This document shows positions 1,108-13,085 of a stretch of 64,000 nt of DNA, piece after piece. Origin of the DNA: an uncultured Flavobacteriales bacterium (GTDB lineage: Bacteria > Bacteroidota > Bacteroidia > Flavobacteriales_D > Sanyastnellaceae); assembly GCA_938085105.1 (NCBI GenBank), contig CALKGK010000036.1, positions 62,001-126,000 on the forward strand, read 5' to 3'. The position numbers and the translations under genes are program-made. Every line of letters starts with the position of its first letter. The stretch's first letter is position 1. The notes beneath the pieces are model-generated. The model had not been told where the DNA came from. It searched no databases and saw nothing but the letters and a program-made list of their open reading frames with translations.

Positions 1108-1139
1108 ATTGTGCCTCAATACCTCTTTTCGTATTTTTG
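1108..1139 (+). promoter_or_regulatory. Bacteroidota-type promoter of the GCTD-repeat T9SS gene
   Basis: ATTG at 1108-1111, a 20-bp spacer, and TATTTTTG at 1132-1139 fit the Bacteroidota consensus (TTTG, about 19-20 bp, TAnnTTTG) with one mismatch in the upstream box. Initiation about 7 bases later would leave a leader of only about 10 bases before the ATG at 1156, which supports that start. Confidence 0.5.
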
Positions 1140-1155
1140 GGGTCTATATTATAAT

Positions 1156-4100
1156 ATGAAAAACCGGTCTACCCTCCTCCTTTTCATTGCTGCCTTTTGT
1201 GCATTCTCCTTGTTACCGCACTCCTCTTTTTCTCAAGTTTTTGGAACGCCCCTCTATGAATGGAACTTTACTTCTGGAATTCCGGCAGATTGGGAAAATG
1301 AAAGTGAAGATGGCGTTTCTGAATGGGAGTATCGCGGACCGAATACGACTCCTTCAAATGCCATTGCATCTCGCGGCTCTTGTGCTTCCAGTTCCGTTCC
1401 TTTGGCCTCTGAAACTCTCGCCGATGGTTTTCTCATTTTCGATTCGAATTATTGGGATGATGATGGAGGTGCATGTGGCGGGAACATCGGCGGGGGCCCA
1501 GCACCTGGACCACATCTAGCTTGGCTTACGACCAATAGTTTTAGCCTTGCTGAAAACCCAGAAGCAACGTTAACCTTTCAACAACAATATAAGCACTACC
1601 TCTCTGGAGGAACCACCTCCACAACAAAAGTATATATATCCATCGATGGAGGTGAGTTTGAACTCTTGCTTGACAATAGCTCGGAAGGAATTTCAAACTC
1701 AGAAAATGTGGAGTGGGTTTCGATTCCTCTTACAACCATCGCCGGAGGTTCAAGCGATGTTCGAATACGGTTTGAATTCTCTGGTTTCTACTACTGGTGG
1801 ATGATTGACAATGTAGTTGTTTTTGAACCGAGTGAAAACGACCTTGTGCTCTACAATGCGAACTACAGCACCTTCGTCCAAAATCTTGAAAATATCTTCT
1901 TTGATCAGGAGTACAATTTCTATCCACTCAACATGATCCCGCAGTTGGAACTCAGTGCACGCGGACAAAATATTGGCGGACAAACACAAACCAACACCAA
2001 ACTTTCTGTAGAGATCAATCGTGGAATAACCAACGTACTTTCAGCAGATTCTCCACTTGAAGATTTATCGCCAGGACAAAATAACAACTGGCAATTACCA
2101 CCTTGGACCCCTCCATCAGTTACAGGAAGATATACCATTGATTTTGCCCTTCAACAAGACCAAATCGATCAAACCATCGGTAATAATTTGGCCAGCAAAG
2201 ACTTCCACCTCACAGAGCACACTTTGGGGCTCGATGAAGGTGTAATGGAAGACCAGTTCATGCCCAATGCAGGTTATCAAAACTCTGCTTACCGTATCGG
2301 TAACGTATATGTGGTGGAAGAACCCAACCTACAATTGCACAATGTTGCTGTTGCTTTTGGCGATAGTAGTATTGTAGGAACCCAAGTCCGCGCTCAGGTA
2401 TATTATTTCAACAACGACAGTATTGTTTACGGAGGCAGTGAAAATTATGAGATCAATTCCTTCGACCTAAATGGGATCGGAGATGACTTCATGGTTCACA
2501 TCCCTTTGATTGAACCCATCACCCTGGTGGAAGACACCAACTATTATGTAACCATTGAGTGCGACACCAACGAAGGTGAGCGCATGGTTGTTGCTCGAAG
2601 TGGAAATGCCATTCCTTTCACATCCTTCGTTAATTACGAGTTGAACAATTTTGGGGGCTACATGCTGAAGTATCCTATGGTGCGGATGGAACTCTTCTCC
2701 GCAAATGAAACACCTGGATGTACCAATCCGCTCGCGTTCAACTTTGATCCGAACGCAGATACGGACGATGCGTCTTGTCGTTTTGCTGGATGTACTGACC
2801 CCGAAAACAACAACTACGATCCCACTGCCAATTGGGAAGACGGATCGTGTTTTGTGGTGGGCTGTTTGGATGAAGAAGCTGACAATTACAATCCTGAAGC
2901 AGAACAAGAAGGTGATTGCATCTATTCTGGTTGTACAGATCTGAATGCCACAAACTACGACCCTCAAGCCAACGAAGATGATGGTAGCTGCTTTCGAGAA
3001 GGATGTTTGGAACCTGAGGCAGACAATTATGACCCATTAGCTGACACTCCTGCAGATTGTATTTACTTCGGATGCACGGACGAAAGCGCTGTGAACTATG
3101 ACCCCAACGCCAATACGAATGACGGAACTTGCTTTTTCTCACAAGCTGCATTTGAGCTTAATGCTGATGTTATTTGTTTGCCCGGACAACTCATTCTTTA
3201 CAACCAAACCAATCTCGATCCTGAAGCCACTTGCGAATGGCGCCTCGACGGTGAAGTGATCAGTACAGATTGTGTGGACAGTTTGGTTATTGATTTGGTG
3301 AATGAAGGAGAATATAACCTCGCTTATTCCTATACCTTGAACGGCTTTGAAACAACGTTTGAGATAAATGGAGTGATTGGAAGCCTCCCTCCTAGTGATG
3401 CCGAAATTCAAATCACCCCAAATACATTTGAACTATCCTGTGCTAATTGTCAAGCAGAAAACGAACTTGCTTGGTTCCTCAACGGAGAATTACTGAACAA
3501 CACAGAAAGTTCCATCACCCCTACTTCCAGCGGAAATTACAGCCTTCAGCAAATCAACAATGTGGGATGTGGTGGAAGTTTGAGTTCCCTCGACGTGAAC
3601 CTTCCTCAAGGTTGTTTGGATGAAAATGCCACCAATTATGATGAGGAAGCGCTCGAAGATAATGGCACTTGTTTTTACGAATCCGCAGAATTTGCGCTGG
3701 CGAGCAATACCATTTGCGCTGGCGCAATTCTCGAAGCATTCAATAGCACAAGCGTGAACCCAGAAGCCAGCTGTTCGTGGTATGTCAATGGAGAACTATA
3801 TTCAGAAGATTGTGGATCTACGGTTGAGTTTATTTTCGACCTACCCGGAACCTATAGTATTGAGTACGTTTATTCGCTTTTCGGTTTTGAAAGCGCTTTT
3901 CTTATTGAAGATATTAGCGTACTGGAATTACCAGAACAACCCGTCATTCTTTTTGATGAATTGAGCAGTACGGTTTTCTGTGTCGATTGTAATGGTGAAA
4001 GCTACCAATGGCTGAACAACGGAAGTGACATCCCAGGAGCAGACGAAGTGGTTTATACTCCTTTGGAAAATGGGAGTTACAGTTTAGTTGTGAGTGATGA

Positions 4101-4398
4101 AAATGATTGCACTAGCAGCTCCGAAGAACTGAATGTCATCATTAACAGTGTAGAAGTGCTAGCGCCGGCCAACTTCCGATTGTATCCTAATCCAAGCAGT
4201 ACGTACACTTGGGTGGAATCCAATGAAGTTATGCAAGTGATTACACTTCGAGACGCACAAGGAAAAATCATTGAAGCGTGGGATGTGAATTCAATGACCT
4301 TTGAAATAGACACCCAGAAGCTCTCCTCAGGATTGTATTTCCTTGACCTTCAAATTGAGGGTAGACTCGAACAACTTAAACTACTCGTTCGCCCATAA
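1156..4398 (+). CDS. T9SS type A sorting-domain protein with GCTD calcium-loop-like repeats
   Basis: Predicted secreted protein of 1080 residues, using the ATG at 1156, which gives a clean signal peptide (KNRSTLLLF to SSFSQ). The first 240 residues form a jelly-roll-like domain (WNFTSGIPADW, WWMIDNVVVFE) like those often found in Bacteroidota adhesins and hydrolases. At residues 521-659 (bases 2716-3132) are six tandem repeats of about 22 residues of the form GC.(D/E)..A.NYDP.A..DDG.C; a seventh stands alone near residues 820-840. Their spaced Asp/Asn and paired Cys recall thrombospondin type 3 calcium loops. Ig-like segments follow. The end (LYPNPSSTYTW to GLYFLDLQ) is a type A sorting domain for export by the type IX system. 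A cell-surface binding role is likely; no catalytic site is seen. Confidence 0.85.
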   Translation: MKNRSTLLLFIAAFCAFSLLPHSSFSQVFGTPLYEWNFTSGIPADWENESEDGVSEWEYRGPNTTPSNAIASRGSCASSSVPLASETLADGFLIFDSNYWDDDGGACGGNIGGGPAPGPHLAWLTTNSFSLAENPEATLTFQQQYKHYLSGGTTSTTKVYISIDGGEFELLLDNSSEGISNSENVEWVSIPLTTIAGGSSDVRIRFEFSGFYYWWMIDNVVVFEPSENDLVLYNANYSTFVQNLENIFFDQEYNFYPLNMIPQLELSARGQNIGGQTQTNTKLSVEINRGITNVLSADSPLEDLSPGQNNNWQLPPWTPPSVTGRYTIDFALQQDQIDQTIGNNLASKDFHLTEHTLGLDEGVMEDQFMPNAGYQNSAYRIGNVYVVEEPNLQLHNVAVAFGDSSIVGTQVRAQVYYFNNDSIVYGGSENYEINSFDLNGIGDDFMVHIPLIEPITLVEDTNYYVTIECDTNEGERMVVARSGNAIPFTSFVNYELNNFGGYMLKYPMVRMELFSANETPGCTNPLAFNFDPNADTDDASCRFAGCTDPENNNYDPTANWEDGSCFVVGCLDEEADNYNPEAEQEGDCIYSGCTDLNATNYDPQANEDDGSCFREGCLEPEADNYDPLADTPADCIYFGCTDESAVNYDPNANTNDGTCFFSQAAFELNADVICLPGQLILYNQTNLDPEATCEWRLDGEVISTDCVDSLVIDLVNEGEYNLAYSYTLNGFETTFEINGVIGSLPPSDAEIQITPNTFELSCANCQAENELAWFLNGELLNNTESSITPTSSGNYSLQQINNVGCGGSLSSLDVNLPQGCLDENATNYDEEALEDNGTCFYESAEFALASNTICAGAILEAFNSTSVNPEASCSWYVNGELYSEDCGSTVEFIFDLPGTYSIEYVYSLFGFESAFLIEDISVLELPEQPVILFDELSSTVFCVDCNGESYQWLNNGSDIPGADEVVYTPLENGSYSLVVSDENDCTSSSEELNVIINSVEVLAPANFRLYPNPSSTYTWVESNEVMQVITLRDAQGKIIEAWDVNSMTFEIDTQKLSSGLYFLDLQIEGRLEQLKLLVRP
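2716..3132 (+). repeat. Six tandem GCTD-type repeats within the T9SS protein
   Basis: Six protein repeats of about 22 residues, pattern GC(T/L)(D/E)..A.NYDP.A...DG.C, lie head to tail. The DNA copies differ strongly from each other although the protein pattern is kept, which suggests an old array under selection and not a recent expansion. Successive Cys probably form disulfides and the Asp/Asn positions probably bind calcium (inference from similarity to thrombospondin type 3 loops). Confidence 0.75.
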
Positions 4399-4461: not shown

Positions 4462-5382
4462 ATGCGCGCTCGAGTCTACCTGCTTTTAATTGTTGTTTCT
4501 ATTGTTTCGGCACTTGCTTCTTGTAAAAAGGAAGAAGTGGTGTTTGAAGACAATACCATTCCACCCTATTCGGAGATCCCAACAGTGGTTGTTCAGAACT
4601 ACGTGAACCGGCTGTTCATCGACCTTATCGGGAGAGAACCCTTGGACTCAGAAATGGAACTTGAGGTGAGCCTTCTTGAAGAAGCCAACCTGAGTACTGA
4701 ATCTCGGGTGAACTTAGTGAATCAGCTGATGTTCGATACGGCTCCGCTCCCTGGTGACAGTTCCTACACTTTTGCATATCACGTCAAGTTGTACGACGAT
4801 TTGAAAGCACGTTTTTTAGAAGGTGCTTCAGAAGATGTTTTGAATTTTGAATATGGAATCTTCCGTGGGCAAGCCATTTCCGACTCCATCAACGGAAATT
4901 TTTCTGCTTATACCTTGAATATGCAAGAAGCCAATCGCATTGCTTTGGTGCAATCATCCCGTTCTGAACTGCAAAATGGTGAAATCTTGATTGATGAAAT
5001 GGTGAAACGGATGCTCATCAACAGCATTTATGACCAAATCAACATGAACAGCTTCAATTTCATCAATGCCACGTACAACGACCTCTTTTTCCGATTCCCA
5101 ACAGCGAGTGAACTTGATCTTGCCTACAACGTGATTGAATTCAACCAAGCGGCTACGATCTATGGTAGCTTGGCACAAACGAAAACGGATTATGTCGACA
5201 TACTCATCTCCAATGGTGAATTTGACGAGGGAATGATCATTTGGGCATACGAGTCTTTACTCGTCCGAACACCGAGCAGCAATGAAGTTTTTGATCAGGT
5301 CATTCCGTTCAGCAACAACTACAATTTTAAAGAAGTACAACGAACAATTTTAATAAGTGATGAATATGCAGGCTTTGATTAA
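4462..5382 (+). CDS. Lipoprotein with DUF1549/DUF4214-like repeats
   Basis: A 306-residue lipoprotein: a signal peptide ends in the lipobox ALASC, followed by KKEE. Three segments share a pattern of an aromatic or Leu-rich helix, then R.P(T/S/L)..E and a second helix: YVNRLFIDLIGREP near residue 48, YNDLFFRFPTASE near 205, and YESLLVRTPSSNE near 265 ending in LISDEYAGF. The first resembles the start of DUF1549, found with DUF1553 and DUF1501 in Planctomycetes; the later ones resemble DUF4214 modules. It is the first gene of a closely packed operon running to 13085, and its end overlaps the next gene. The function is unknown; the link with a DUF1501 gene downstream supports a joint envelope role. 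Confidence 0.7.
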   Translation: MRARVYLLLIVVSIVSALASCKKEEVVFEDNTIPPYSEIPTVVVQNYVNRLFIDLIGREPLDSEMELEVSLLEEANLSTESRVNLVNQLMFDTAPLPGDSSYTFAYHVKLYDDLKARFLEGASEDVLNFEYGIFRGQAISDSINGNFSAYTLNMQEANRIALVQSSRSELQNGEILIDEMVKRMLINSIYDQINMNSFNFINATYNDLFFRFPTASELDLAYNVIEFNQAATIYGSLAQTKTDYVDILISNGEFDEGMIIWAYESLLVRTPSSNEVFDQVIPFSNNYNFKEVQRTILISDEYAGFD

Positions 5383-5860
5383 AAATGGTTTGGTTCTGAT
5401 TGTGCTCACGTGCACGCTCTTTTCCTGCAAACCCGAACCCGAAGCGAGTTTCATCTTAAACGATGTTGAGCTCTACCCCTCCAATGCAGGGAAAACCAAA
5501 GAGAAAACCAACGAACAGTTTGTGGCCATTCTTCATGCCAACCTCTTTCAAACTGCCCTTTCCGCTAATGACGTTTATGATGTGAACCGTTGCATAGAAA
5601 GCATAGGAGATAAAGAATTAGCTCGCGAAGTCATCATCAGCAATTTCATGAACGATCCCGCAGTTCAACTACCCAGTGTGGAAGAAATGAACGCAGATAT
5701 CGACCAATTCATTGAGGACACCTACGTTCGCTTTTATGTTCGCTACCCAACGGAAGCAGAGAAAACCTATTTGAGAAACTTCATCCAGAATAACCCATAC
5801 GTAACGCCAGAGATTGTTTATTTCTCCTTTGCCTTATCGGATGAATACATGTACTACTAA
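5360..5860 (+). CDS. Lipoprotein, small companion of the DUF1549-like protein
   Basis: A 166-residue lipoprotein that overlaps the preceding gene by 23 bases (ATG at 5360; an in-frame ATG at 5366 is equally possible). The signal peptide ends LFSC before KPEPE. The C-terminal third repeats the pattern of the upstream protein (YVRFYVRYPTEAEKTYL, then FALSDEYMYY), so the two probably arose by duplication or by splitting of a longer DUF1549/DUF1553-like protein. The overlap indicates translational coupling. No enzymatic motif is seen. Lipidation at the cytoplasmic or outer membrane is inferred from the signal alone. Confidence 0.65.
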   Translation: MNMQALIKNGLVLIVLTCTLFSCKPEPEASFILNDVELYPSNAGKTKEKTNEQFVAILHANLFQTALSANDVYDVNRCIESIGDKELAREVIISNFMNDPAVQLPSVEEMNADIDQFIEDTYVRFYVRYPTEAEKTYLRNFIQNNPYVTPEIVYFSFALSDEYMYY

Positions 5861-5871
5861 GCCCAGCCATT

Positions 5872-7206
5872 ATGAAAAGAAGAGAATTCATCAAAAAAGC
5901 CGGACTCACCGCGGCAGCTGCGGCTAGTTTACCTTACATCCTTCCGAGTGGACGACTATTTGCTGCGAGTGGACGACAAATGAGTCAGCACGTGGTTTTG
6001 GTTATGTTTGCCGGTGGAGTTCGACAACAAGAATCTGTTCTGCAGCGCTATCTAGACGATAGTCAGGAGAACGAACCCTACCCCGGGAACATCATGTACA
6101 ACATGTTCACTGGAGATGCACCAACGCAGAAAATCGTATACGGAACAGGTCAAGGAGGAATATCACCCATCCCTTCCATTCTTTCTTCCAGCCTACAAAA
6201 TCAAGGAACCCTATTCTCCGAAGTGAGGGCGCTGAGTGCCGGACATTATGGAGGATTGAACAGCATGATTCAGGGGTCCATGGTCACCACTCAGGGATTG
6301 AAAAACCGCCCAGTAAACCCAACGCTTTTTGAATATTTACGCAGGCACGGTGGCTTGAGCGCAACCGATACTTGGTTTGTTGGAAATGGAATTGCGAACT
6401 CGGTTCCCTTGTTGAATTACAGCGCACATCCTGATTATGGGGCACAATACGGAGCAAACTTCTTTGCGCCTTCCATCACCTTTAACAACGTGGGGCAAAC
6501 CTTTTTGGGAGACGCGAAAGTATATCACCCAGAAAACGAACTTTCTCCAATGTACGCATTGAAGCAATTTCTCGACAACTCCTTTGAGAACTATGGATCG
6601 GGACTTCTTGCTCTTGGAAACACGGAAGATGAAAAACAGAACATCAAAGCCTTCATGGAAGAAATGTTCACCAAAACCGAGAACGGCACCATTGCTCATC
6701 CTCCGGTAATGGATAATAACGATACTGCAACGCTGGGGTACACCTGTGAGCTTTTGAAGTGGTTCAAGCCCGCGCTCACAGTGGTTAACTTGAACAACGT
6801 TGATGGTTGTCATTCCGACTTCACTGGCTACCTACAAAGTTTGCACCGAGCGGATCATGGCGTTGGACACCTTTGGAATTTCATTCAGAACGAAATCCCG
6901 GAAATGGCGGGAAATACCACCATTATCGCAACACCAGAATGCGGACGAAACCTCAATCCAAACAATATTCTTGACGTGAACGATTGGAGGGCCTATGATC
7001 ATTCCGACGAAAACTCACGCAGAATATTTAGTTTGATGGCCGGACCAACAACACCATCCAATTTGGTGATTGGCGGTGAAGGAAATCCCATTGGACAAAT
7101 TAGCGATACGATGATGACCGTGGCCGACATTCTTGGGGTGATGCCGGAAGTTCAGAATGCCGGACACACTGCACCAGGAACGCAAACACTCTTCAACTAC
7201 ATCTAA
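5872..7206 (+). CDS. DUF1501 family protein with Tat signal
   Basis: A 444-residue exported protein. The N-terminus (RREFIKKAG, then a hydrophobic Ala-rich helix to FAASG) is a twin-arginine signal, implying export in folded form, often with a metal bound. The body matches DUF1501, a branch of the alkaline phosphatase/sulfatase-like superfamily: QHVVLVMFAGG near residue 40, GCHSDFTGYLQSLHRADHGVGHLW near 315-340, TTIIATPECGRN near 355, and DHSDEN near 380, which supply His/Asp/Glu as possible metal ligands. The GGVRQQES stretch is unlike the GGNDGLN of many DUF1501 proteins, so catalysis is uncertain. It lies between two lipoprotein genes and a cytochrome-like lipoprotein, with a 1-base overlap (TAATG) to the latter. 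Confidence 0.8.
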   Translation: MKRREFIKKAGLTAAAAASLPYILPSGRLFAASGRQMSQHVVLVMFAGGVRQQESVLQRYLDDSQENEPYPGNIMYNMFTGDAPTQKIVYGTGQGGISPIPSILSSSLQNQGTLFSEVRALSAGHYGGLNSMIQGSMVTTQGLKNRPVNPTLFEYLRRHGGLSATDTWFVGNGIANSVPLLNYSAHPDYGAQYGANFFAPSITFNNVGQTFLGDAKVYHPENELSPMYALKQFLDNSFENYGSGLLALGNTEDEKQNIKAFMEEMFTKTENGTIAHPPVMDNNDTATLGYTCELLKWFKPALTVVNLNNVDGCHSDFTGYLQSLHRADHGVGHLWNFIQNEIPEMAGNTTIIATPECGRNLNPNNILDVNDWRAYDHSDENSRRIFSLMAGPTTPSNLVIGGEGNPIGQISDTMMTVADILGVMPEVQNAGHTAPGTQTLFNYI

Positions 7207-8174
7207 TGAAAAGAAACATCAGAACCGTCGTCCTGCTTTTTATGGGGGCACTGCTCGTTTTCTTCACAGCGTGTAAAAAAGACGAAGTTGAAAATCCTTA
7301 TGAAGAAATTGAGCGCAGCGTTGCAGTGGACAATCCCAGTGTTGATGACATTCCTGTGGGCAATTTCGCTTGGCTTCATGGAAAGATTTTTGCGCCCACC
7401 TGTGCCAACTCAGGGTGCCATGATGGAACCTTTGAACCTGATTTCAGGAGTATCTCTTCTTCCTACAATTCTTTGGTGAATCACCCCGTGATCTCCAACA
7501 ATGCCGAAATGAGCTTTGAAGTCAGAGTACTCCCAGGAAATGCTAGTGCATCACTCCTGAACGAGCGTCTAACGGCCAACATTCCCAACTCTTCAGGAAT
7601 CATGCCTTTGGAAGTCGATGAGGCATCAGATTGGGACAGCTTTTCATCAGCATACATTTCCAACATTCAGGCTTGGATCAATGGCGGAGCTTTGGACATG
7701 TATGGGAATCCACCTTCAACGGGGTCGGGCAACCTACCTCCGAGTGTCGACGGATTGGTCGTATTCCCTCAAGGAAACACCACCGACCCTTTCGGACGAA
7801 ACCCCGATGAGCCAGGAATTACTCCCATCGAAGTGAATGCCGGAGTGATAGATGTTTGGGTGAAGGTGAGTGACGACCAACTTGACCCAACAACTTTAGG
7901 AACGAACGAATTGCTTTTTGCCTCCAGTACAAGTGAACTCGAGAATGCAAGTCCTGTTGTTTTCAACAGCACCAATTCCATCATAGCAGAGGATTTTGGC
8001 GGAAATCCGGCTTCTTTTTATCATCGCGCCAGCATTGATTTGACTGGAGCTGCTGTGGGCGACACCTTTTTTCTTCGAACCCGTTTTGATGATGGTGTAA
8101 ATCCTGAAGTTTCCATCCCCAACGAGGGAAGTAACCCTTTCATAACCGCCATTTTTGTAATCAAAGTCGTATGA
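7206..8174 (+). CDS. c-type-cytochrome-like lipoprotein (CX4CH motif)
   Basis: A 322-residue lipoprotein (lipobox FFTAC, then KKDEVE). Near residues 62-70 the sequence IFAPTCANSGCHDG gives a Cys-four residues-Cys-His motif, one or two residues longer than the canonical CXXCH heme site, followed by FEPDFRS and, 70 residues on, SSGIMPLE, whose Met could be the second axial ligand. This layout (IF.P.C...GCH to MP) is typical of single-heme cytochrome-like modules in large Bacteroidota and Planctomycetes proteins. The last 130 residues are an Ig-like domain. Start and stop are fused with its neighbours (1-base overlap before, 4-base ATGA overlap after). Heme binding is plausible but unproven. Confidence 0.7.
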   Translation: MKRNIRTVVLLFMGALLVFFTACKKDEVENPYEEIERSVAVDNPSVDDIPVGNFAWLHGKIFAPTCANSGCHDGTFEPDFRSISSSYNSLVNHPVISNNAEMSFEVRVLPGNASASLLNERLTANIPNSSGIMPLEVDEASDWDSFSSAYISNIQAWINGGALDMYGNPPSTGSGNLPPSVDGLVVFPQGNTTDPFGRNPDEPGITPIEVNAGVIDVWVKVSDDQLDPTTLGTNELLFASSTSELENASPVVFNSTNSIIAEDFGGNPASFYHRASIDLTGAAVGDTFFLRTRFDDGVNPEVSIPNEGSNPFITAIFVIKVV

Positions 8175-8617
8175 GAAACTACTCCTTCCATTTTCTGATC
8201 CTATTGCTGCTTTTGCTCACATCATGTAAAAAAGAGGAAGTGCTTGACCCCGTGCCAAGCATTGAGTTCAAGAGCATTTCTGCGAGTGAGGTTGAGAACT
8301 TCAACAATCAATTGGTGGTGAAAATTGCTTACCAAGATGAAGATGGAGATCTGGGGGAACAGGATCCGGACAGCTATTCTTTGAGAATTCGCGATGCCCG
8401 TTTGAACGATTTTGATTGGTATCACATTCCCCCATTAACACCAGATAACGAAGCCTTGAATATTGAGGGGGAATTTGAAATTGAGTTGAACGCCCTCTTT
8501 CTCCTAGGAAACGGAGATCAAGAAAGCACTACCCTGTCATTTCAACTGCGGGACCGCGAGGGAAATTGGAGCAACACCGTTCAATCTCCGCTCATTCTCA
8601 TTCTTGACAGCCTCTGA
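8171..8617 (+). CDS. Small hypothetical lipoprotein
   Basis: A 148-residue lipoprotein with a signal peptide ending LLTSC and then KKEEV. The remaining sequence is a single beta-rich domain with an acidic AYQDEDGDLGEQDPD loop, likely to bind calcium, and a closing LSFQLRDREGNWSNT stretch, which is the look of a one-domain cadherin/Ig-like fold. It overlaps the cytochrome-like lipoprotein gene by ATGA and is followed two bases later by the large adhesin gene, so it belongs to the same operon. No known function. Confidence 0.65.
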   Translation: MRNYSFHFLILLLLLLTSCKKEEVLDPVPSIEFKSISASEVENFNNQLVVKIAYQDEDGDLGEQDPDSYSLRIRDARLNDFDWYHIPPLTPDNEALNIEGEFEIELNALFLLGNGDQESTTLSFQLRDREGNWSNTVQSPLILILDSL

Positions 8618-8619
8618 GC

Positions 8620-11600
8620 ATGAAAGCGAAACGCTGGATACATACCGTTTTGTTCTTGGTGTTGACCATCGCCGTCAGCGCCCAGCTTCCAGAATACAAC
8701 ATGGACAACCTCACAGTGAGCGATTGTGATGGATACCTTTATGACAGCGGTGGCCTGGACGACCCCTACGGAAACAACGAAAACCTCACCTTTACGATTT
8801 CCACTGGAGCAACAATAACTGCTGGTTTTTTGGAAGAAATCTGCATTGAAGACGGCTTTGACTTTTTGAACGTTTACGATGGCCTTGACGATACTGCCCC
8901 GCTCATTGCGAGCATAACAGGAGCGAATTTCACCCCTGGAGACCTCGTTGCAAATTCAGGAAGTATGACCTTTGTTTTTAGCTCAGATCAATCTGCGAGC
9001 TATTGTGGTTTTGCCTTAATATGGAACACCAATGCCATTCCTCCCGTCCCACCCAACTTGAGTTTGGGAGAAGCGGTGAGCTGCGAGGATGGGATTATTT
9101 CTATTGACTTTTCAAGCAACATCGCTTGCTCTTGGCTCTATCCAGACAGCATTCAAATTGTGGGTGAAGACAACCTAAGTGTCAATCTTCTGAACTTAAA
9201 TTGCAATGCAGATAGCACAAGCAATGTTTTGTTTGATACCACCCCTGCTTTTGATCGTAATTGTCCTTATGTACTTGACCTCGTGCTGGGAATTCCGGAC
9301 AACTGTGATTCCATTTGGCTTTTTCATCGAACGCTCCCTTTTGAGGTGAGTGATTGCGGCATCAACGCTAACCTAATTCTCGATCCTGAAGAAATTTGCG
9401 CTGGACAGTGCACGAGCATCACAGCAGAAGTCGAAGGCTGTTACACCTATTCTTACGATTGGACCCCTACCCTAGCACCTGGACCAGGTCCTCACCTCAT
9501 CTGTCCAGAAATCAATACCACATATAGCGTGGTAATTACCGAAATCGAGACGGGTAACTCAGAGGTTTTCTCCATAGAAGTGGACGTCACCAACGCCGGT
9601 ATTCAATTCGAAGATCAGTCGCTATGCCAAAGCTTACCGGGATTTGAGCTGAGTGCATCTACTTCTGGGGGAGAGTGGTTTGGAAACGGCATTCAAGATG
9701 AAGAAACTGGTTTTTTTGAACCCGACTCAGCGATGGCGGGAAGCAACACCATTTACTACGTCATTAGCGAAAGTTGTTTTGACAGTGTGCTGATTGACAT
9801 CATTCCCATCGATGCTGGAATTGCCGATGCTGCATGCCCTGGCGCAGACCCTTTTCAATTGGTAGGAACTCCTCTTGGGGGAATTTGGGACGGCCCGTTC
9901 ACGGATCCTGGAGGAGTTTTTGATCCTCAGAGCGCGGGAAGTTATGAAGTCTACTACAATCTTAATGGTTGTGAAGACACCTTAGAGGTCAACGTTGAGG
10001 AGATCTTGGGCACCTTCGATTTGGGCGAGATGTGTCAGAGTCTGTTTCCCGACACTCTTGATTTCTCTCCATTAGGAGGTACCTGGATTGGACCGGGCTT
10101 CGAAGACGATTTTTATGGCGTGTTTGCTCCGGAAAGCGTTGACCCTGGAAATTACGATTTGCTTTATCAAGTCAATGGCTGCGACCAAATCTTCACTGTA
10201 GAAATCAAGGAAATTGATACCGGACAAAGAGTAAGGACCAGTTGCCCTGAGCAAGACGCTTTTATCCCCTTCTCCAATTTCGCTCCTCTCGGTGGAACCT
10301 GGGAAGGAACGGGAATTACCGATCAAACAGCGGGAACCTTTGACCCTGGAATTGTTCCCGACGATTTTTGGAGCGAACTGATCTATTATGCTCCCAACGG
10401 ATGTACTGACACCATTTTCAATTACAACCGACAAACCGTGATTGGATTTGATACCGCCTATGCCTGCATCGACGAGCCAGCGCTTGGCTTGTATGAAGAC
10501 AATGTGGGTAACCTTCCTTGGAATGGGGTATGGACTGGAAACGGCATTACCAACCCCGAAAACAACTATTACGAATTCACAGCAGAATTGGCAGGAATCG
10601 GAAGTCATCTCCTCACCTATGAAGTGAACACTTGTGCCGACACTGCCCGAGTTTTTGTTTTCCCCAACTCCTTGCAAGTGGAGAGTTACGAACTCTGTTC
10701 GAATGAAGCACCATTCATTCTTGACCCAAGCATCAACACAGGCGGAACTTGGATTGGCGAAGGAGTCATTGATGCATCAAGTGGCCTATTCGATCCTGGA
10801 CAAGCATCGGAAGGTGAACATTACATTGTTTGGGACACACCATCCGGATGCCGCGACTCTTTGCTGGTTAGAATAGAGACCTTTCAGCAAGCTACCATCA
10901 GTGGATTGAATGAAGTGTATTGCTACCAAGACCTAGTACTTGACATCGACTTGAGTCCGCTAGGAGGAGTATTTACTGGTCCGAGCGATGAGAACAATAT
11001 CAACCCAGCCACACTGGGAGCAGGAGAGCACACTTTCGACTATGTCTATGAGGGCGATTATTGTGCCAGCGATACTAGCATTACAATCCTTGTGCATCCC
11101 TCCATCGACCTTTTCATTTCAGCCAGCGACACCCTCATTTGTGACAATTCAGGCAGTACCATTGAAGTGAGTGCAACAGGCGGAATACCAGAAGCTTTGT
11201 TTGAATACTCGTGGTCTGACGGACTCCTTTCTTTGAGCCAAAATAATGTTCAGCCGGAAGAAAGTCAGTATTACTATATTGCCGCCAATGATGGCTGCTC
11301 AGATCCTTCTTTGGACTCCATCTTAATCTCAGTTCTCCCTCCAATCCAAGTGGAGGTTTCTGTCAACGACACCCTGTGTTTTGGTGAGCCAAGCAGCGCT
11401 CTTGCTGAAGTTCTTTCTACAGGAAACTACTCTTTGACTTGGGCGAGCAATTCAGGGAACACCGCCTTAGTGGATGCTGGTGCCAGTGTAGGACTTGAGG
11501 TGATTGACCTCGACGAAGGCTGTAGTTTTGACAGTTTGGTTTACGTCCCGAGCTATTCTCCAATTAGCGCTGCATTCAGTCTGAATCCCAATTTGGATTG

Positions 11601-12090
11601 TGTTCCTTTTGAAGCTCAGCCTATTGAGATCATTGATTTGAGTCAAAACGCACTTATTGGAATTTGGGACCTTGGGGATTTGGGCATTTTAGAATACGGT
11701 GAAAGCAATCCTTCGCTCAGCTTTGACACCCCCGGGGAATATCCCATTTCGCTCTATGTTGAGAACGAAGGCGCTTGTCCAGACAGCGCATCGCTCAGCA
11801 TTTGCATTGAAGACCCCGCCCGCTTGTTCATCCCCGACATTTTCAGTCCGAATGACGATGGGTTGAACGACGTTCTTTACGTGAGAGCACAAGGCTTGGC
11901 CTCCTTGGATTTCATGATGTATGACGCTTGGGGAAGCATGGTTTTTAGCAGCACCAACGCTGATCATGGTTGGGATGGGAGATTGCGCGGTGGAAAAGCA
12001 CCAGAGGGTGTCTATGTGTATTTTTTGCAGGCTCGCCTCAATGATGGCACCTTGATTGAGCAACATGGTAACGTAACTCTTGTGCGATGA
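8620..12090 (+). CDS. CUB-domain adhesin with T9SS type B (gliding-associated) sorting domain
   Basis: A 1156-residue secreted protein. After the signal peptide (to VSAQ) comes a CUB domain at about residues 27-140 (SDCDGYLYDSGG, DFLNVYDG, YCGFALIW). Residues 349-815 hold seven repeats of about 65-80 residues built on GG.W.G.GI.D...G.F.P......Y...N.C, separated by Cys-rich linkers. Ig/PKD-like segments follow, and the end (IPDIFSPNDDGLND to GVYVYFLQA) is the gliding motility-associated type B C-terminal domain recognised by the type IX system. Such proteins are large surface adhesins. The next gene, overlapping by ATGA, is a PorP/SprF protein, the usual partner of type B substrates. No enzymatic motif is seen. 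Confidence 0.88.
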   Translation: MKAKRWIHTVLFLVLTIAVSAQLPEYNMDNLTVSDCDGYLYDSGGLDDPYGNNENLTFTISTGATITAGFLEEICIEDGFDFLNVYDGLDDTAPLIASITGANFTPGDLVANSGSMTFVFSSDQSASYCGFALIWNTNAIPPVPPNLSLGEAVSCEDGIISIDFSSNIACSWLYPDSIQIVGEDNLSVNLLNLNCNADSTSNVLFDTTPAFDRNCPYVLDLVLGIPDNCDSIWLFHRTLPFEVSDCGINANLILDPEEICAGQCTSITAEVEGCYTYSYDWTPTLAPGPGPHLICPEINTTYSVVITEIETGNSEVFSIEVDVTNAGIQFEDQSLCQSLPGFELSASTSGGEWFGNGIQDEETGFFEPDSAMAGSNTIYYVISESCFDSVLIDIIPIDAGIADAACPGADPFQLVGTPLGGIWDGPFTDPGGVFDPQSAGSYEVYYNLNGCEDTLEVNVEEILGTFDLGEMCQSLFPDTLDFSPLGGTWIGPGFEDDFYGVFAPESVDPGNYDLLYQVNGCDQIFTVEIKEIDTGQRVRTSCPEQDAFIPFSNFAPLGGTWEGTGITDQTAGTFDPGIVPDDFWSELIYYAPNGCTDTIFNYNRQTVIGFDTAYACIDEPALGLYEDNVGNLPWNGVWTGNGITNPENNYYEFTAELAGIGSHLLTYEVNTCADTARVFVFPNSLQVESYELCSNEAPFILDPSINTGGTWIGEGVIDASSGLFDPGQASEGEHYIVWDTPSGCRDSLLVRIETFQQATISGLNEVYCYQDLVLDIDLSPLGGVFTGPSDENNINPATLGAGEHTFDYVYEGDYCASDTSITILVHPSIDLFISASDTLICDNSGSTIEVSATGGIPEALFEYSWSDGLLSLSQNNVQPEESQYYYIAANDGCSDPSLDSILISVLPPIQVEVSVNDTLCFGEPSSALAEVLSTGNYSLTWASNSGNTALVDAGASVGLEVIDLDEGCSFDSLVYVPSYSPISAAFSLNPNLDCVPFEAQPIEIIDLSQNALIGIWDLGDLGILEYGESNPSLSFDTPGEYPISLYVENEGACPDSASLSICIEDPARLFIPDIFSPNDDGLNDVLYVRAQGLASLDFMMYDAWGSMVFSSTNADHGWDGRLRGGKAPEGVYVYFLQARLNDGTLIEQHGNVTLVR
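9667..11065 (+). repeat. Seven GG.W.G.G repeats in the adhesin
   Basis: Seven imperfect protein repeats, each with a GG(T/E/I/V)(W/F).G..GI.D motif, a FDP or FEP motif and a closing Cys (for example GGEWFGNGIQD, GGTWIGPGFED, GGTWEGTGITD, GGTWIGEGVID). The DNA copies are well diverged. They probably form stacked beta-domains extending the adhesin from the surface. Confidence 0.7.
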
Positions 12091-13085
12091 AGAAATGGGG
12101 AATGACCATATTTTTCGCCATTGGAATGGTTATAGTGAGCTTTTCGCAAGACGCTCGCTTTAGCCAGTTTGCCTTCACTCCTACCCTCATCAACCCAGCA
12201 GAATCTGGAGCCATAGAAAATGATTTCCGAGGGCAAATTCACTACAGGCAACAGTGGGCTGTTTTGGGTGAAGCGTTCAAGAACTACGCCGCCATCGGAG
12301 ACATGGCTTTCTTCCGAAGTAAAAAGAGCAACAATTACCTTGGGAGTGGATTTATCGTTCAGAGAAGTGAAGCCGGAAAATCTTCTTTAAGCGAACTACG
12401 GGCCGAAGGACAGGCAGCTTACCATCTTAGCGGAAGCAAGAAGAACATTTGGTCGGCCGGACTAGCGCTCGCTTTTATCCAACGAAGCATTTCATTTGAC
12501 GGTTTGATCTGGGATAGTCAGTACAACGGTGTGGGCGTTGACCCAAGTCTTTCGAGCGGAGAAATATTCTCCAATGAGACCAGAAGCACCTTTGATGCGG
12601 GAATGGGTTTTTTGTGGAGGCACCGTGGAAGGCAGAAATACAGCATTGGCTACTCTTGGAGGCACTTTTTGCAGAATCAAGGCTTTTTAGACAACACCAG
12701 TTCACCATTGTTCCCAACACAGAGTCTTTCCGTGAAGTGGATGGAGCAAATGAATTTTGTTGACGTGAACTATGATTTGTTGCTCATTCGTCAGTCGGGC
12801 GCCATGCAAATACTCGCTGGTGCATTATTGAAATACCGTTTTGGAATGGATTCGAAGTACACCACGTCCAAAACATCGAGCATGCTTTTGGTGGGATGTC
12901 ATTTGCGTTATGGCGATGCGCTTATCCCAAGCTTGGGCTATGAATTTCAGCGAAGTTTTCAATTTTTAGCCAGTTACGACATCAATGTTTCTGGACTCAA
13001 TGAAGTCTCACAACGCCGTGGCGGGATGGAGATCAGCTTGATCTATCTCGGAAATAAAACTTCCCAACGAAGAAAACTTCGCTAG
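12087..13085 (+). CDS. PorP/SprF family type IX secretion membrane protein
   Basis: A 332-residue outer-membrane beta-barrel protein of the PorP/SprF family. The signal peptide ends at SFSQ and is followed by the family hallmark DARFSQFAFTPTLINPAESGA and then QIHYRQQWA. Aromatic alternating strands continue to the end. PorP/SprF proteins capture type B sorting-domain substrates at the cell surface and are usually encoded next to them. Here the gene overlaps the upstream adhesin by ATGA and closes the operon. The stop codon TAG shares the palindrome CTAG with the stop of the convergent small gene. Confidence 0.92.
   Translation: MKKWGMTIFFAIGMVIVSFSQDARFSQFAFTPTLINPAESGAIENDFRGQIHYRQQWAVLGEAFKNYAAIGDMAFFRSKKSNNYLGSGFIVQRSEAGKSSLSELRAEGQAAYHLSGSKKNIWSAGLALAFIQRSISFDGLIWDSQYNGVGVDPSLSSGEIFSNETRSTFDAGMGFLWRHRGRQKYSIGYSWRHFLQNQGFLDNTSSPLFPTQSLSVKWMEQMNFVDVNYDLLLIRQSGAMQILAGALLKYRFGMDSKYTTSKTSSMLLVGCHLRYGDALIPSLGYEFQRSFQFLASYDINVSGLNEVSQRRGGMEISLIYLGNKTSQRRKLR

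Follow-up and report, generated by a model that had tools for sequence, protein, structure and literature searches.

What do seven overlapping or closely spaced genes for lipoproteins, a protein with a twin-arginine translocation (Tat) signal, a probable cytochrome and a surface protein of the type IX secretion system (T9SS) do together? They lie at positions 4462-13085 of the window, as we call the whole 64,000-nucleotide stretch of an uncultured Flavobacteriales bacterium (contig CALKGK010000036.1) analysed here. We propose that the operon would be one cell-envelope module, related to the planctomycete-type cassette of PSCyt and DUF1501 genes, coupled to a T9SS-displayed surface protein and doing a redox-linked step; we regard this reading as evenly balanced between right and wrong. 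The unit has a conserved core of six genes, while the seventh, a PorP/SprF-family gene, is lineage-specific. The operon was named in no title or abstract found by a search whose scope excluded most subscription papers and all bioRxiv preprints.

Organisation and conservation of the operon

All seven genes are on the + strand: LP1 (4462-5382), LP2 (5360 or 5366 to 5860), the Tat protein gene (5872-7206), CYT (7206-8174), LP3 (8171-8617), the type B protein gene (ADH, 8620-12090) and the gene for a PorP/SprF-family shuttle/anchor (12087-13085). Their coordinates and junctions agree with the preliminary description, namely an overlap of 23 bases, a gap of 11, overlaps of 1 and 4, a gap of 2 and an overlap of 4. 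The first of these holds for an LP2 start at the ATG at 5360, which is favoured over 5366 because many of 20 relatives have an MNMQ- or MSMQ-type start. In a domain scan of the window proteins, the type B C-terminal domain (CTD), a CUB domain and PorP/SprF were above model cut-offs, and no match over cut-off was obtained for LP1, LP2, the Tat protein, CYT or LP3.

A scan of named genomes with alignment A1 gave 415 relatives, and the locus counts use the best 80 of them (L071-L150), ranked by the Tat protein. These 80 are the nearer part of the family, some of them closely related, and slots beyond a contig edge are excluded from the counts. By profile searches, the visible slots beside the Tat gene held LP1 in 73/73, LP2 in 77/77, CYT in 73/73 and LP3 in 70/70 cases. 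Further downstream, the type B N-terminus was found in 57/59 slots, the type B CTD in 54/56 and SprF in 35/52. Junctions fell within -30 to +30 bases for LP1-LP2 in 66/69, LP2-Tat in 71/79, Tat-CYT in 77/79, CYT-LP3 in 71/72, LP3-type B in 47/47 and type B-SprF in 37/38 cases, counts that are biased towards small gaps by choosing the start closest to the upstream stop and dropping rows of at least 300 bases. Moreover, the six core proteins show correlated pairwise distances (Spearman 0.52-0.83), as joint descent predicts.

Gene order and tight junctions are thus kept in relatives beyond this genome, an arrangement that does not come from chance, and the proposal of a single unit holds for six genes; with 35/52, SprF does not belong to the core. 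Among the 17 loci lacking SprF, 2 also lack the type B gene and 15 retain it. In those 15, the SprF profile (E <= 10) matches no next listed open reading frame (ORF), though a very divergent SprF gene may be present there; that SprF was not found at these loci next to the type B gene counts against the module we propose. The preliminary description considered that the functional link would be weak if core and type B/SprF pair occurred only apart in relatives; we found the type B gene adjoining the core at 57 of 59 loci.

The unit has a restricted distribution. A phylum-wide system was rejected, as the Tat gene (E <= 1e-20) occurred in 2 of 345 evenly drawn phylum genomes, one of them the window's own. 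Co-occurrence with the T9SS was also discarded as evidence, as SprA is encoded in 267 of the 345 and does not discriminate. In a sample of 249 genomes of the order, 97 match the Tat gene at E <= 0.001, of which 44 are strong (at least 165 bits) and fall in four families, and 53 are short and weak.

Association of the core with the type B protein

In the order sample CYT occurs in 44 genomes, 43 of them overlapping the strong Tat set (Fisher p 5e-46), and the type B protein, at a threshold of E <= 1e-40, occurs in 47, of which 41 overlap the 44 Tat genomes (Fisher p 8e-37), both p values being uncorrected for relatedness. Exceptions for CYT are G207, with a Tat gene and no CYT, and G213, with CYT and no Tat gene, where the contig begins inside CYT (L223). 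The type B protein occurs without the Tat gene in G180, G213, G215, G231 and G233 (77-88% complete); a sixth match of this kind, in G169, is weak and from another family. All three genes are absent together from the near-complete genomes G068, G140, G146 and G152 of genus g7, G110 of g11 and G053 of g6, genera which otherwise carry the operon.

Some genomes retain both parts at separate places. In genus g9 (G116, G162, G176) the type B-SprF pair has a locus of its own away from the core; the two are on different contigs in G024. The separation in G116 is not a contig break, because the core continues past LP3 into unrelated genes (L226), and the separation in the three g9 genomes is probably one event. 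The suggested link to a T9SS type B protein is supported by 41/44 Tat genomes and by joint retention in genomes where the parts are apart.

Several observations speak against our reading. No type B homologue was found in the Tat-positive genomes G182 (86% complete), G001 and G192. A second, paralogous core of five genes (L059, L060, L061), with no neighbouring type B gene, is present in G047, G031 and G024, so a core can stand without such a neighbour. The one core found in G024 is of this second kind, so the type B-SprF pair encoded elsewhere in that genome is perhaps not the partner of that core. A core without an adjacent type B gene also occurs at L043/L085 and L131.

The paralogous loci L059-L062 carry a second Tat subfamily, 43-45% identical, with PEHGRN replacing PECGRN and its own LP1-LP2-Tat-CYT-LP3 set; L062 ends inside CYT. 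The gene at L060:10418-13822 lies downstream of that core; its product has molybdopterin and 4Fe-4S domains, and we take it to be ActB-like, of alternative complex III. Alternative complex III as a companion of the core was not adopted: the ActB-like protein was seen in L060, the one core whose following genes were scanned for it.

The type B protein and SprF

The type B protein is large and Cys-rich. It carries a CUB domain (8767-9018) and a type B CTD (11830-12087) with 38.3 bits for TIGR04131 (cut-off 35) and 55.7 bits for CHU_C (cut-off 27). The SprF protein reaches 131.4 bits for TIGR03519 (cut-off 90.55) and 117.2 bits for PF11751 (cut-off 22.3). In Flavobacterium johnsoniae the twin-Cys tail of the gliding SprF is disulfide-bonded to GldK (PMC12635249), and orphan type B genes use a shuttle encoded elsewhere (PMC12618676). 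PorP-like proteins have been proposed as anchors of type B proteins (PMC9143113). The twin-Cys CxC motif was found in the last 30 residues of none of 37 SprF homologues and is absent from the window protein; any Cys at all was present there in 5/37. Because the SprF homologues are without the gliding twin-Cys tail, the sequences speak for a static surface protein. The type B protein is conserved over its full length, with 30 Cys kept in more than 90% of 52 aligned sequences. In view of this conservation and of the missing gliding motif (0/37), the earlier name of adhesin lacks support.

The five upstream genes might instead encode accessory factors by which the type B protein is secreted, anchored or moved, as sprC and sprD do for SprB; we consider this doubtful. 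Its strength lies in the layout, since helper genes, type B gene and sprF gene follow each other as in the sprCDBF operon (PMC5879114), and in the type B gene standing directly after the core in 57/59 loci. However, the core is more conserved than its supposed client (median identity to the window proteins 0.66 for Tat against 0.37 for type B and 0.33 for SprF), the core paralogue at L059-L061 has no type B gene beside it, the SprF homologues lack the GldK-linking twin-Cys (0/37; PMC12635249), and a cytochrome and an alkaline-phosphatase-fold protein would in our judgement be odd secretion helpers.

Two further observations concern T9SS cargo. At E <= 0.001 the window's own genome (G000) yields 37 matches to the type B CTD; 34 exceed the cut-off, and many lie in ORFs of more than 1000 residues. 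A large type A T9SS protein with 'GCTD...A.NYDP.A...DGSC'-like repeats is encoded at 1111-4398, ending 63 bases upstream of LP1, and its profile matches a gene at the same place in the close relatives L033, L034, L035, L038 and L039.

Fold and active-site residues of the Tat protein

The predicted model of the Tat protein (predicted local distance difference test, pLDDT, 78.9; predicted template modelling score, pTM, 0.83) has the alkaline phosphatase (AP) superfamily fold. Its best structural match is PafA (5too; Z 26.2, root-mean-square deviation (rmsd) 3.8, 297 residues), followed by sulfatases and phosphodiesterases, and the 50 structure matches listed are phosphatases, sulfatases, phosphodiesterases and similar proteins. 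Compared with PDB sequences, the Tat profile gave coiled-coil chains at best (E 0.02). In the 93 distinct Tat-family sequences used for all residue counts, the Tat-type N-terminus is represented by Arg3 in 93/93 and Arg4 in 90/93; TIGR01409 scores 15.9 bits in the window protein, just below its cut-off of 16.7.

The preliminary description called this protein a Tat DUF1501 protein. Pfam DUF1501 (PF07394) matches 0/30 family members at E <= 1 and nothing in the own genome at E <= 0.001, so this name was rejected at the level of a plain Pfam scan. Kinship is visible only in profile-profile comparison, where hhalign gives E 2.7e-7 (Prob 93, 94 columns), above the superfamily background of E 0.09 found for AP-fold proteins (alignment A8) of family f9, which may be Flavobacteriaceae, against DUF1501. 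The E-x-G-R and DH motifs align in this comparison, and the His after the Asp is off by one residue. In the profile ranking, the f9 PF01663-type proteins (308-365 residues; hhalign E 5.5e-22) are nearer to Tat than DUF1501 and are the closest outside relatives found. Hence the Tat N-terminus and a distant DUF1501 kinship were upheld, while the Pfam-level assignment was not.

The f9 proteins are encoded at L063-L070 (e.g. L065:6558-7568), match PF01663, PF00884 and PF01676 and have a full canonical active site, with D37, T77, D191, H195, D237, H238 and H252 kept in 8/8. T77 aligns with the residue of ENPP5 that we take to be the nucleophile, a Thr in 5vem/5ven but an Ala in 5veo. The weak Tat matches in the order (residues about 279-430) were set aside, as the eight examined represent a separate AP-superfamily family with an intact site.

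In the Tat protein itself, part of the canonical site is replaced. Candidate ligands of metal site 1 are found in Asp311-x-Cys313-His314 (6802-6813), with D311, C313 and H314 each in 93/93, and in Asp376-His377 (6997-7002), likewise invariant, whose His is the candidate third ligand; D311 is aligned with D191 of the PF01663-type set by both hhalign and MAFFT. At metal site 2, the canonical Asp-His-Gly gives way to Glu356-Cys357-Gly-Arg (6937-6948): the Asp-His position is Glu in 88 and Asp in 5 sequences, then Cys in 74, His in 18 and Gln in 1, and the two programs agree on the Glu-Cys register. The position expected for the first-strand catalytic Asp holds Ala or Gly in these counts. No Ser, Thr or Cys is invariant at positions 114-131, where S122 comes closest with 64/93. 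His125 (6244-6246), in contrast, is present in 93/93, lies 10 residues ahead of Gly135 in 93/93 and falls on T77 of the PF01663-type set in 4/4 MAFFT alignments, which makes it the probable nucleophile position. In DUF1501, too, an invariant His precedes a helix Gly/Ala by 10 residues (16/16), but a joint three-set MAFFT alignment did not align it with His125. Sequences of the HYNGHTVAMTG type (L059-L061) bridge the two patterns.

The residue assignments also meet with contrary evidence. In hhalign, GH125 of Tat pairs, across a gap, with GH81 of the PF01663-type proteins. That the first-strand Asp is lost was read by eye and from MAFFT (Ala47 or Gly48 in 3/4 alignments, a misplaced Thr80 in 1), the hhalign match beginning at Tat residue 104. 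His314 falls on H195 in neither program and was placed by pattern only, and His377 falls on H252 by hhalign only, MAFFT being two residues off.

The catalytic Asp, the Ser/Thr/Cys nucleophile and the two complete metal sites of an active AP enzyme were not found in the sequence. The Tat protein is probably a DUF1501-like AP-fold protein and not a classical hydrolase. The conserved candidate ligands are the feature that would make it the 'metalloprotein' proposed earlier.

An enzymatically active Tat protein, working as phosphatase, phosphodiesterase or sulfatase on surface polymers while the other parts deliver its substrate, is quite improbable. Such an enzyme would agree with the AP fold, with sulfatase, PafA and NPP chains as top structure matches and with the seven canonical residues kept by the nearest outside relatives (8/8), but it would have to act with Ala or Gly in place of the expected first-strand Asp (by-eye and 3/4 MAFFT registers), without a Ser, Thr or Cys common to all 93 sequences at 114-131 and with site-2 Asp-His mostly changed to Glu-Cys.

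The heme lipoprotein and the other lipoproteins

CYT contains the motif CX4CH (7401-7421) in 71/71 aligned sequences, window included, and CX2CH in 0/71. CX4CH can bind heme. A candidate distal heme ligand is provided by Met133-Pro134 (7602-7607), kept in 108/108 rows, and WI..GA is conserved as well (duplicate loci included). The hhalign comparison of CYT with the PSCyt1 end of PSCyt1-PSCyt2-PSD1 proteins gave E 2e-8 (Prob 95.4) over 131 columns that include MP and WI..GA. A PSCyt1 Pfam match (PF07635) together with CXXCH was not found among 17 CYT members, one of which reached PF07635 at E 0.048. The profiles of CYT and LP2 against PDB sequences yielded no more than FoxE at E 0.48 and one match at E 0.22. 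CYT is thus a probable heme lipoprotein with a mono-heme, PSCyt1-like domain, as had been suspected, and the supposed kinship with the PSCyt/DUF1501 cassette is borne out by this comparison and by that of Tat with DUF1501.

LP1 has its lipobox Cys21 at 4522-4524, and its AlphaFold model is all-helical (pLDDT 91.1). Residues 103-289 (4768-5328) resemble the phycobilisome linker, with a top Z of 10.2 (rmsd 2.4, 116 residues), where for helical models a Z under about 13 can arise by chance. The first 39 of the 50 listed rows are phycobilisome entries, several with titles naming the linker, at Z 10.2-7.5, and the next row has 6.5. Foldseek alone gave no E below 0.001. The LP1 sequence profile, compared with PDB sequences, also found linker chains (E 8.7e-8), and the linker-like assignment was made because sequence profile and fold agree. 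Under Pfam cut-off, the window protein scores 15.0 bits for DUF4214 (PF13946) and 14.5 bits for the PBS linker (PF00427); one homologue exceeds the DUF4214 cut-off (24.6 vs 23.2 bits). From model and profile, LP1 is best described as phycobilisome-linker/DUF4214-like.

LP2 is a small lipoprotein with weak DUF4214 likeness (11/20 relatives at E <= 1, best 2.5e-5). LP1 and LP2 look mutually related, at an E of 6.7e-8 that comes partly from signal peptides within the match. LP3 is a small conserved lipoprotein without a Pfam match. A relation of LP1 and LP2 to DUF1800 was rejected (LP1 C-terminus E 1.9e-4, Prob 47; LP2 Prob 0.1).

Of the 'DUF1549/DUF4214-like lipoproteins' of the preliminary description, the lipoproteins (four with CYT and LP3) and the linker/DUF4214-like character of LP1 were retained. 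The DUF1549 side, which would tie LP1 and LP2 to the planctomycete-type cassette, fared worse, and this weakens that part of our proposal. The LP1 N-terminus is weakly similar to DUF1549 (E 2.1e-5, Prob 77), LP2 to PSD1 (E 0.005, Prob 7), and PF07583 is reached at E <= 1 by 3/20 LP1 members, the best of them at 0.011 with 16.1 bits (cut-off 29.8), so there is no Pfam-level match.

The location of the lipoproteins is also uncertain as judged by their motifs. The optimal lipoprotein export signal in Capnocytophaga canimorsus is C-X-K-(D/E)2-X (PMC5080379). CKKEE of LP1, CKKDE of CYT and CKKEE of LP3 fit it in the window, and CKPEP of LP2 does not. In relatives with a recognisable lipobox the exact motif occurs in 13/69, 7/67, 18/67 and 22/64 sequences, and surface exposure of all lipoproteins by export motif was rejected since the motif is not conserved in relatives.

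A proposed envelope module

From the gene set, its conservation, the two predicted folds and the motifs, we infer the following mode of working. LP1 and LP2 would serve as helical lipoprotein scaffolds that hold CYT and the Tat protein, and LP3 would be a small accessory lipoprotein. The Tat-exported AP-fold protein would bring a rebuilt catalytic site and the conserved residues that may bind one metal, and CYT would move electrons. The Cys-rich type B protein would exit via the T9SS and, where SprF is encoded, be held by it at the surface, forming a static rod and not a gliding adhesin. We see in the core a probable relative, split up and diverged, of the planctomycete-type cassette of PSCyt1-DUF1549-DUF1553 plus DUF1501, and the module as a whole might perform the redox-linked binding or modification of an envelope substrate. 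The own genome encodes a cytochrome c assembly protein, TatC and SprA, which support such a module because it requires all three. Of the features tested, none besides the heme motif points to a redox reaction, which counts against the redox part.

Two unrelated systems sharing a promoter, with the core of five genes as one and a type B/SprF surface pair of the ordinary kind as the other, are very improbable: the cores without an adjacent type B gene (L043/L085, L131, L059-L061) and the abundance of type B proteins (37 CTD matches in the own genome) would suit them, but one specific type B family accompanies the core in 41/44 genomes and both parts are kept though apart in G116, G162 and G176.

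Comparison with known systems

The proposed envelope module can be compared with five known systems. With the AP superfamily (PafA, NPP, sulfatases) the Tat protein has the predicted fold and the candidate metal site 1 ligands in common, whereas the catalytic Asp and the Ser/Thr/Cys nucleophile were not found in it and site 2 is rebuilt. LP1 residues 103-289 have fold and sequence profile in common with the PBS linker (PF00427)/DUF4214 group; unlike a phycobilisome linker, LP1 is a lipoprotein encoded beside a cytochrome, and the window protein lies under the linker Pfam cut-off.

In F. johnsoniae an SprF-family gene likewise directly follows a gene with a type B CTD, and in the window both models are above cut-off. 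The operon differs by its five conserved upstream envelope genes, the frequent absence of SprF and the lack of a twin-Cys tail.

In the DUF1800-DUF1501 pair, a partner gene stands directly ahead of a DUF1501-like Tat gene, as in the operon. DUF1800 is helical. The LP1 C-terminus is weakly like the DUF1800 set, but Pfam does not place LP1 or LP2 in DUF1800, and both are lipoproteins. As a side observation, a comparison of alignments A6 and A7 gave a weak profile similarity between the DUF1800 set and the PSD1 end of planctomycete-type proteins (E 1.5e-4, Prob 52), and this might connect the two kinds of partner that DUF1501 has; Pfam scans covered a single PSCyt1-PSCyt2-PSD1 protein and, of the 17 'DUF1800' partners, likewise one. 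The pair has been reported beside bacterial chitin synthase genes (PMC5122149).

In the accessible text of the literature consulted, no function is stated for the DUF1501, DUF1800 and PSCyt/PSD families, and nothing is known of the functions of PSCyt genes according to PMC5615132. The profiles of these families found no solved full-length relative in the PDB. No paper was found that joins DUF1549 with Bacteroidetes, 'planctomycete cytochrome' with Bacteroid, or phycobilisome linker with DUF4214.

The planctomycete-type PSCyt1-PSCyt2(DUF1549)-PSD1(DUF1553) plus DUF1501 cassette, for which L210 served as the example with two of its proteins checked, likewise has the genes for a heme domain of PSCyt1 type and for a Tat protein of DUF1501 type standing together. 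DUF1501 resembles the Tat protein in the E-x-G-R and DH motifs and possibly in its invariant His, which has equal spacing. In the operon, by comparison, the parts are split over separate lipoproteins and ordered differently, the heme motif is CX4CH where the cassette has CXXCH, none of the four families is matched at Pfam level, and there is a tie to a T9SS type B protein. A wider reading unites DUF1501 with the Tat proteins in a single branch of the AP superfamily, in which the nucleophile has become His and site 2 has been rebuilt, and which works with a dedicated partner protein and often with a c-type cytochrome as well; the cassettes of the Planctomycetes-Verrucomicrobia-Chlamydiae (PVC) type and the operon would then be versions of one ancient envelope machine. 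We hold this to be unlikely, and lowered our estimate slightly because the joint alignment did not align the DUF1501 His. If true, the ancient machine would here be coupled to T9SS display, with a linker-fold lipoprotein arranging heme and metal proteins. The compact, conserved operon offers a tractable gene set for the His-for-nucleophile hypothesis, the scaffold fold and the surface partner, and with it the role of DUF1501/PSCyt-type cassettes becomes testable on a single operon.

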